Below are positions 17,579-18,956 of a DNA stretch of 35,611 nucleotides, one piece after another (the first letter of the stretch is position 1; each line of letters begins with the position of its first letter). The DNA is taken from NCBI GenBank assembly GCA_945873105.1, contig CAMCBW010000054.1:1-35611 (forward strand), in the 5' to 3' direction. The notes under the pieces were generated by a model that saw nothing but the letters and a program-made list of their open reading frames with translations, ran no database searches and was not told where the DNA came from. Made by a program: the position numbers and the translations under genes. The DNA is from Tangfeifania diversioriginum (lineage in GTDB: Bacteria > Bacteroidota > Bacteroidia > Bacteroidales > Prolixibacteraceae).

Positions 17579-17590
17579 ATCTAACTTTAA

Positions 17591-17686
17591 GTTATGAGTT
17601 ATAAGTTATGAGTTATGAATAAGGAGAATTTGATCAACAGATACCTGGGTCAAAAAACTCATCACTCATAACTTATCACTTATAAC
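17591..17686. repeat. Inverted repeat of GTTATGAGTTATAA units in tyrA leader
   Basis: Left arm 17591-17620 is built of GTTATGAG / GTTATAA units; the right arm 17657-17686 is its imperfect complement (CTCATAACTTATCACTTATAAC). It lies between the attenuator terminator and the tyrA start, so it would be part of the read-through transcript as a long hairpin. Confidence 0.75.
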
Positions 17687-17690
17687 CCTA

Positions 17691-17725
17691 TTAAAAAAAG
17701 AGGCCTCCACCAGGGAGACCTCTTT
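17691..17725 (-). terminator. Attenuator terminator upstream of tyrA
   Basis: On the minus strand AAAGAGG (17725-17719) pairs with CCTCTTT (17703-17697), and an inner CTCC with GGAG, separated by a one-base mismatch and a 5-nt loop; it is followed by a run of seven Ts (17699-17693). It stands 31 nt after the leader peptide stop and 112 nt before tyrA. No structural gene precedes it, which marks it as an attenuator rather than a gene end. Confidence 0.85.
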
Positions 17726-17755
17726 GTATGTTATCGTTTTGTTTCAAACAATGCC

Positions 17756-17824
17756 TTACTCGCCGATCTCCTGTTGGAAGCGGGGATAATAAAACCAAAA
17801 ATAAAGTGCATTGCCAGAAATCAT
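17756..17824 (-). CDS. Aromatic leader peptide of the tyrA operon attenuator
   Basis: A 22-codon ORF starting ATG at 17824 and ending TAA at 17756, too short for usual gene callers. It encodes M-I-S-G-N-A-L then YFWFYY, then PRFQQEIGE: seven of 22 residues are aromatic, including all three aromatic amino acids in one run. It sits 24 nt after a TATTTTTG promoter box and 31 nt before a terminator hairpin with a T-run, immediately upstream of an aromatic biosynthesis operon. Codons 18-20 (CAGGAGATC, 17765-17773) can pair, with one bulge and a G-U pair, with the 5' half of the terminator stem (17711-17720), giving a possible antiterminator. This is the design of classical amino acid attenuators such as pheL and trpL; the function here is inferred. 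Confidence 0.85.
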   Translation of the reverse strand: MISGNALYFWFYYPRFQQEIGE

Positions 17825-17847
17825 CGTTCTTAACTTTTATTCTGTCG

Positions 17848-17855
17848 CAAAAATA
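17848..17855 (-). promoter_or_regulatory. -7 box of tyrA leader promoter
   Basis: TATTTTTG on the minus strand, 24 nt before the leader peptide ATG. It matches TAnnTTTG; a -33 partner is not clear. Confidence 0.6.
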
Positions 17856-17993: not shown

Positions 17994-18956
17994 TCATTTC
18001 CCGGGATCCGCTTCAGCTGGACTCCCTGCCTCCCAGGTATCCAGCACCCCCTTCTCATTTTCCGGCCTGGCCTTGCTCCGGGTTACCAGGTAGACCCCGC
18101 AAAAAATAAGCACAGCAGAGAAAACCTTGGTCAGGGAGAAGTGATCCATGCCCAACGCTACTGCAATCAGGGAGGCAATCAAGGGCTGGAAGTTGTTGTA
18201 CATGCTGATGGTTGTTGGCCTGATGCGCTGCTGGGCCAGAGGAATCAGCAAATAGGCCAGAAAAGTTGCGATGAATAGGGTGTAGAGCATCTGAAAGAGT
18301 GGAGTAATCTCTGGATGATGGTAGACCGGAGCAGCCATCAGTTGCTTGTAATAGAAAGGGGTTACCAATACCGATGCATAAAGAAACATCCATTTCATCA
18401 GGGTGATTGGGGAGTAACGGATGGTCAATGGTTTGGTAAAGACCAGGTAAAAGGCATAGATGAAGGCACTTCCCAATACCATTATATTGCCAGTCATGTT
18501 ACTGGTATGGTTCGCCGATGCCTGATGACCATTGAAAACCAGCAGGATGGCGCCACTTGCCCCTACCAATACCCCCGTTACTTTCAAGGCAGATATCGGC
18601 TCTTTCAGGAGGATCGCCGCAAAAATCATGGCAAAAAGCGGTCCGCTCGTGATGATGATGGAGGCATCGATGGGGGAGGTCAGGCTCAGACCGGTGATGA
18701 AAAGTCCCTGATTGAAGACGACTCCGCACAAAGCCCCAACAAAGAAAAAACGGTGCTCCTGCCAGGTTACCCTTTCGCGGGTCATGAAGAGGGAGGCGAC
18801 CCAAAAGGCCATAGTTCCGAAGAGAATCCGGGAAAGGGTAAGACCCTCGGGCGAGATCCAAACCGGTAACAGGGATTTGGAGAGCGGTATATTGATCCCA
18901 AATATCAAGGTTACCGCAAACATGATGAGATGTCCGGCTCTTCTATCCCCTGGCAT
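17994..18956 (-). CDS. DMT superfamily (EamA) transporter
   Basis: A 320-residue inner-membrane protein with ten predicted helices in two EamA repeats: the first from HLIMFAVTLIFGINIPLSKSL to ~residue 140, the second beginning GNIMVLGSAFIYAFYLVFTKPL. The pattern N.P..K..L, then LSRILFG.MAFW and GPLFAMIFAAILLKEPIS at the end of helix 4 is standard for drug/metabolite exporters. The substrate is unknown; amino acids and metabolites are typical. The C-terminal tail (~25 residues, ENEKGVLDTWEAGSPAEADPGK) is charged and cytoplasmic. It has its own promoter at 19026-19055 and lies upstream of the tyrA leader on the same strand, but the leader promoter separates them, so a link to aromatic amino acids is only a guess. 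Confidence 0.88.
   Translation of the reverse strand: MPGDRRAGHLIMFAVTLIFGINIPLSKSLLPVWISPEGLTLSRILFGTMAFWVASLFMTRERVTWQEHRFFFVGALCGVVFNQGLFITGLSLTSPIDASIIITSGPLFAMIFAAILLKEPISALKVTGVLVGASGAILLVFNGHQASANHTSNMTGNIMVLGSAFIYAFYLVFTKPLTIRYSPITLMKWMFLYASVLVTPFYYKQLMAAPVYHHPEITPLFQMLYTLFIATFLAYLLIPLAQQRIRPTTISMYNNFQPLIASLIAVALGMDHFSLTKVFSAVLIFCGVYLVTRSKARPENEKGVLDTWEAGSPAEADPGK

Follow-up and report, generated by a model that had tools for sequence, protein, structure and literature searches.

The pheL leader of E. coli is a Phe leader, and the enterobacterial ilvL and thrL leaders each carry codons for several end products. A leader encoding Phe-Tyr-Phe, aroR, precedes the DAHP synthase gene aroF of C. 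glutamicum, where attenuation by ribosome stalling is described as responding to Phe limitation and not to Tyr availability (PMC4046766, PMC11802643). Closer in phylogeny, leader-peptide attenuation has been suspected upstream of amino-acid operons in Flavobacteriaceae, and the same account places a structured 5' element with no Rfam match upstream of pheA in Flavobacterium psychrophilum and other Flavobacteriaceae (PMC9723704). Our literature search, which covered open-licence papers, found nothing published on leaders of tyrA or of DAHP synthase genes in Bacteroidota.

We describe such a leader from Tangfeifania diversioriginum. The window, that is, the whole stretch of DNA analysed, comprises the 35,611 nucleotides of contig CAMCBW010000054.1 (GenBank assembly GCA_945873105.1). 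With a probability of roughly 0.9, we conclude that a ribosome-mediated transcription attenuator controls the operon of tyrA and a DAHP synthase-chorismate mutase gene. Judged from its codons, the leader would sense Phe, Tyr and, perhaps, Trp, and the cell can probably turn the tyrosine pathway on only under a shortage of aromatic amino acids.

Layout of the leader locus

All of the relevant elements lie on the minus strand, in the order transporter gene, promoter-like box, leader open reading frame (ORF), terminator, tyrA, and DAHP synthase-chorismate mutase gene. An earlier sequence-only reading had reported the box, a 22-codon ORF with the run YFWFYY and one further Phe codon (Phe16), and a terminator ahead of two aromatic-pathway genes with no structural gene in between. 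Each of these is present where it was placed and as it was described, and no other gene is seen between the leader and tyrA in the window. The features are as follows.

17855-17848, minus strand: promoter-like box TATTTTTG, matching TAnnTTTG, 31 nt 5' of the leader ATG
17824-17756, minus strand: leader ORF MISGNALYFWFYYPRFQQEIGE, 22 codons plus stop (ATG at 17824, stop 17758-17756), aligned with 42 relatives
17815-17808, minus strand: segment A GGCAATGC, codons 4-6, pairing with A' across the aromatic codons
17803-17786, minus strand: control codons 8-13, Tyr-Phe-Trp-Phe-Tyr-Tyr (YFWFYY), from the sequence
17784-17776, minus strand: region 1, pairing with region 2 as a protector hairpin (RNAalifold and window folds)
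17771-17765, minus strand: region 2 (R2) GGAGATC, 5' strand of the antiterminator, from the last base of codon 18 to codon 20
17754-17747, minus strand: segment A' GCATTGTT, just 3' of the leader stop
17739-17733, minus strand: segment A'' AAACGAT, a possible alternative partner of A' (helix count)
17720-17714, minus strand: region 3 (R3) GGTCTCC, common to antiterminator and terminator (covariation)
17725-17693, minus strand: intrinsic terminator, with a 12-bp stem (17725-17697), loop (17713-17709) and T-run of seven T (17699-17693)
17578-16679, minus strand: tyrA, prephenate dehydrogenase, 299 aa (NF006307, 344 bits; cut-off 295)
16673-15582, minus strand: DAHP synthase-chorismate mutase fusion, 363 aa, matches to DAHP synthase and chorismate mutase models all below curated cut-offs

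The leader thus has the clustered end-product codons, terminator, mutually exclusive antiterminator and protector hairpin by which trp-, phe- and his-type attenuators are recognized. TAnnTTTG is the consensus of the Bacteroidota -7 promoter box, and 39 leaders out of 41 that were scanned have a box of this type no more than 60 nt 5' of their ATG, a count that accepts the variants TAnnTTTA and TAnnTTAC and a 3-nt spacer. Two leaders (L010 and L011) have no box, and the sole match in L025, at -10, is too near the ATG to serve. Inspection by eye revealed no convincing -33 promoter box.

Only five bases separate tyrA from the fusion gene, a homologue of which follows tyrA in all 37 aligned loci with downstream sequence; the other six of the 43 aligned loci hold none. 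The T-run and tyrA are 114 bases apart, including inverted repeats of a 7-nt unit of the AACTCATAACT type at 17587-17690. Five of the window's six matches to these repeats fall in that interval (0.58 expected), and they could form a second hairpin. By eye, similar repeats occur at this place in some relatives of the same genus and are absent in others, a pattern suggestive of a small repeat that is mobile or expanding. On the other side of the leader, the gene at 17994-18956 (minus strand), which adjoins the aromatic operon, encodes a DMT-type transporter with weak matches, far below cut-off, to models of the aromatic amino acid exporter YddG.

Conservation of the reading frame and the paired strands

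A tyrA search of 61 genomes, 37 of them from the window's family, gave matches in 48 genomes, including 36 of the family. An aromatic-rich short ORF precedes tyrA in every one of those 36, and the stems covary; conservation of this kind in related Bacteroidales is the check that the sequence-only reading had proposed. The 43 leaders that we aligned, the window's included, contain seven from a named collection with tyrA 67-68% identical to the window's; near relatives from that collection include Prolixibacteraceae and Mariniphaga. Duplicates (L031-L035, identical to L002-L006) were dropped from the counts, and a locus labelled Sphingobacteriaceae (L043; tyrA 55% identical), which has no aromatic ORF within 400 nt of tyrA, is not among the 43. 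Outside the family, twelve genomes of the order gave a tyrA match and nine were read upstream; an aromatic ORF precedes the operon or tyrA in seven of them, and none was found upstream in L122 or in L118, which is cut by a contig end. Chance is a poor source of such ORFs: the motif TWYTWYTGGTWYTWYTWY, as a pattern of two aromatic codons, TGG and three further aromatic codons, occurs four times in the 5.36-Mb own genome and never when read backwards. The three occurrences away from the leader are all tied to long ORFs, one in frame, one antisense and one out of frame.

The aromatic codons number 151 for Phe, 146 for Tyr and 40 for Trp over the 43 leaders. As to the proposal that the leader could sense all three aromatic amino acids, Phe and Tyr codons are present in 43 of 43 leaders, and Trp codons in 37, being absent from six; Phe and Tyr thus make up the general signal, to which Trp is a usual but not a universal addition. 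The single Trp codon may go unsensed.

Could the peptide itself be the sensor? A nascent-peptide arrest of the TnaC type, in which the aromatic peptide halts its own ribosome, perhaps once a free aromatic amino acid has bound, would draw on an ORF that is indeed conserved and aromatic-rich, and arrest can be driven by free amino acids in the case of other leaders. The order and identity of the aromatic residues vary, however (YFWFYY, FYYWFYYF, YFYFYFYF, FFYFYYYF), and it is the R2:R3 pairing that the residues at the C-terminus track. The ORFs of L111 and L115, moreover, are only 18 codons long and stop before these residues, and GGGATCG is kept after the stop, untranslated; it is thus RNA pairing, and not a peptide tail, that is conserved there. 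Both observations fit a sensing of codons better than an active peptide, and we consider peptide arrest very unlikely.

Codons 18-20 had been proposed to pair with the 5' arm of the terminator, and they do so over 7 bp (GGAGATC/GGTCTCC). A helix of at least 7 bp is available to R2 and R3 in 39 of the 43 leaders, versus 6.7% of 860 controls with shuffled R2; in L013 it reaches at most 4 bp. Across the alignment (columns 69-75 with 128-134), 97.0% of cells are paired and five of the seven pairs show two-sided changes, with partners that change together from GGAGATC/GGTCTCC to GGGATC/GGTCCC, to GGAATC/GGTTCC (L016, L025 and L029) and to ACTCAGGGGT/GCCTCTGAGT (L021). The terminator is 94.6% paired, with two-sided changes in eight of nine pairs. 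Since R2, R3 and the 3' arm of the terminator change together, both of the alternative structures seem to be under selection. A hairpin with a T-run was detected in 39 of 43 leaders at one setting and in 41 at another, and in each of the 43 by at least one.

The covariation extends to two helices beyond those of the sequence-only reading. The A:A' helix, whose family form joins AACAAYAC in the codons just before the aromatic run to GTATTGTT just after the stop, is paired in 86.3% of cells, with two-sided changes in five of eight pairs, and seven of the eight pairs appear in the centroid fold of the window leader. R2:R3 and A:A' are jointly 91.3% paired, a value that drops to 32-48% once partners are slid by 1-3 columns, and across five measures the observed value was reached in 0 to 9 of 500 shuffles. 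RNAalifold, given no structure, returned the terminator together with a hairpin in which region 2 pairs with the codons that directly follow the aromatic run (columns 53-59 with 71-77; two-sided changes in four of six pairs). This hairpin resembles the 1:2 hairpin of classical attenuators; its exact register in the fold of the window leader departs slightly from that of the family consensus.

Tests of single loci speak less sharply. The R2:R3 duplex surpassed its shuffles at p<=0.05 in 19 of 41 loci (L022 and L027 are not among the 41), and the cognate arm was often not the best among all arms. Cognate duplexes averaged -11.9 kcal/mol and non-cognate ones -9.5, the cognate being better than the mean of its own non-cognate duplexes in 34 of 41, a test that is blunt because the arms are so alike. 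We make no claim for a nested A':A'' hairpin: it is attractive in the genus and near relatives and reaches at least 6 bp in 33 of 43 leaders, but also in 43% of shuffles, and its mid-segments fold better than 90% of shuffles in only 17 of 43.

The predicted switch

From these parts we infer transcription, translation, stalling and read-through at the leader. RNA polymerase would start just upstream, and a ribosome would begin the 22-codon leader. Were charged Tyr, Phe or Trp tRNA scarce, the ribosome would stall within codons 8-13, covering segment A and region 1 and leaving region 2 available to pair with the terminator's 5' arm (R2:R3), so that transcription would continue into tyrA. With charged aromatic tRNAs at hand, the ribosome would reach the stop and cover region 2, and the terminator would form. 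On a leader without a ribosome, A:A' and the 1:2 hairpin would tend to hide region 2, favouring termination in most leaders.

Folding the leader with a ribosome masked likewise predicts a switch between the two structures, which the sequence-only reading had held to be mutually exclusive. The folded transcripts end just after R3, and everything up to 11 nt past the A-site codon was barred from pairing. The probability of R2:R3 exceeds 0.5 in 36, 37 and 38 of 43 leaders with the ribosome at the first, middle and last codon of the run, respectively, and in 12 of 43 without a ribosome, where termination is favoured in the other 31. With the ribosome at the stop the count is 0 of 43, a value forced by the masking itself. 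For the window, the corresponding probabilities are 0.92, 0.92 and 0.86 at the three stall positions versus 0.31 without a ribosome.

Five leaders fail at all stall positions tested: L013, L021, L022, L040 and L114. Direct counting gives R2:R3 helices of 5 bp in L022, 7 weak bp in L114, 10 bp in L021 and 7 bp in L040, and for the last two the column register is therefore at fault. In all 43 leaders R2 starts 4.7-5.7 codon numbers past the run's last codon (the run being delimited by alignment columns). Going by the masked folds, a stall anywhere in the run should give read-through, which would make the leader an OR gate for the amino acids that it encodes. The terminator is the stable fold in the window leader, and the switch must thus be kinetic.

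Leaders elsewhere in the phylum and comparison with known systems

Outside the family, a pheA homologue lies upstream of tyrA in 56 of the 66 loci of our tyrA scan, and a dense aromatic ORF precedes pheA in 53 of the 54 such loci with at least 450 nt upstream (reverse strand, 1 of 54). In three loci (L050 and L070, labelled Saprospiraceae, and L049, labelled Bacteroidetes) the 450 nt ahead of pheA hold a tandem pair of aromatic leader ORFs, which suggests double attenuators. A prephenate dehydratase match is present in 102 genomes of the phylum, and in 40 of these, the 24 of the window's class (own genome excluded) and 16 from other classes, mostly one per family, we also surveyed pheA directly. 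An aromatic ORF stands within 450 nt of pheA in 20 of the 24, with a terminator found for 16, and in 1 of the 16 from other classes; as controls, the reverse strand gave 1 of 40 and more distal upstream DNA 0 of 39 (the stretch of L199 is short). The own genome's pheA (L131) showed no aromatic leader. Phe makes up 0.52 of the aromatic codons in L045-L110 (n=54, mostly pheA-first) versus 0.44 in the family's leaders before tyrA (n=43; Mann-Whitney p 7e-6), a difference from which nothing firm follows because the groups are different clades.

Within the window's order, a Trp-rich ORF precedes trpE in 10 of 19 loci (0 of 8 in the window's genus at the threshold used), a His-rich ORF precedes hisG in 10 of 14 loci, the own genome not among the positives, and a Leu/Val/Ile-rich ORF precedes ilvD in 17 of 17, the own genome included. 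The three sets gave no cross-matches among themselves and none on the reverse strand; one of 20 trpE and two of 16 hisG loci yielded no gene start, and weak hisG matches (L236, L237) and ilvD fragments (L255, L256) were left unscanned. In five loci of the window's family (L200, L201, L202, L205 and L209) two consecutive Trp-rich ORFs precede trpE, one WLPWWG-like and the next WWW-like. The branched-chain leader of the own genome, upstream of ilvD (L242), is MKTSFDSLLLVVILILVCAG. Under a similar criterion, a dense aromatic ORF precedes 6 of these 50 trpE, hisG and ilvD genes, four of the six being trpE, and the ORF alone is thus not diagnostic.

A covariance model of the leader has a single match in the own genome, the window leader. 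Among 119 genomes of the order it matched six, two in the family and four outside, under strict filters that miss leaders seen otherwise. Three of the four outsiders (L259, L260 and L262) lie directly before pheA, the aromatic frame of L259 lacking an ATG, and the fourth (L261) has a tyrA-like match about 1.4 kb downstream. At L261:1504-1690, in another family of the order, two short aromatic ORFs follow one another, each with a hairpin-like sequence and a T-run.

These surveys bear on a second alternative, as improbable in our estimate as peptide arrest, under which the terminator serves only to end a small-protein gene or a short independent RNA, tyrA having its own promoter further down. 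The 114 bases with repeats that separate the T-run from tyrA in the window would leave room for such a promoter, but in many relatives the leader stop is about 75-80 nt from tyrA. A plain terminator, furthermore, has no need of an R2:R3 helix that covaries against its arm, and leaders of matching amino acid precede matching pathway genes. Least probable of all is a metabolite-binding riboswitch, T-box or protein-binding attenuator that overlaps the ORF by chance: the leader is structured and has alternative helices, but at its conserved core lies an open frame of aromatic codons, no Rfam family (T-box included) reaches its gathering score in the window, and with E allowed up to 1 the only matches around the leader are a microRNA model and Phe_leader, the latter itself a family of leader-peptide attenuators.

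An attenuator before tyrA therefore remains our reading of the locus. A wider version of it, to which we give slightly less than even odds, takes the leader as one pan-aromatic OR gate for Phe, Tyr and Trp at the first committed step, with A:A' shutting the operon off when the leader is untranslated, and as part of a Bacteroidia-wide system of matching leaders on aromatic, trp, his and ilv operons. If true, such matching leaders would imply tight coupling of transcription and translation in the phylum. Bacteroidota are held to make little use of Shine-Dalgarno initiation. The attenuator and the class- and order-wide scans open a general question to test: do ribosomes in Bacteroidota keep close enough behind RNA polymerase for attenuation, and can a single mixed leader report on three amino acids?

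Among described families, Rfam RF01859 (Phe_leader) gives a match of 31.6 bits (E 0.0014, 341 bases searched) in which the leader ATG and the terminator are in register, yet its gathering score of 55 bits is not attained, and the other strand also scores 21.5 bits. Of 16 relatives searched, 4 have this family as the match at the leader, and the best score among the 16 is 37.8 bits. Unlike pheL, the window leader mixes Phe, Tyr and Trp codons; it shares with ilvL and thrL the combination of several end products in one leader, which there are branched-chain amino acids or Thr/Ile and not aromatic ones. The C. glutamicum aroR leader is actinobacterial, and the passages cited mention only Phe-Tyr-Phe for it and say nothing of tyrA (PMC4046766, PMC11802643). 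The F. psychrophilum element belongs to the same phylum and pathway and, like this leader, has no Rfam match; it comes from another family, with pheA as first gene, and the passages cited give no peptide, antiterminator or tyrA case (PMC9723704). The aromatic ORFs that we found before pheA in Flavobacteriaceae are probably that published element. On the evidence of these passages, the nearest system in function is aroR-aroF of C. glutamicum and the nearest in phylogeny is the pheA element of Flavobacteriaceae. The mechanism is classical, and as a new case of such a switch the tyrA leader is well supported; it gives the Bacteroidota a family-wide, covariation-backed attenuator that stands outside all Rfam families at threshold.
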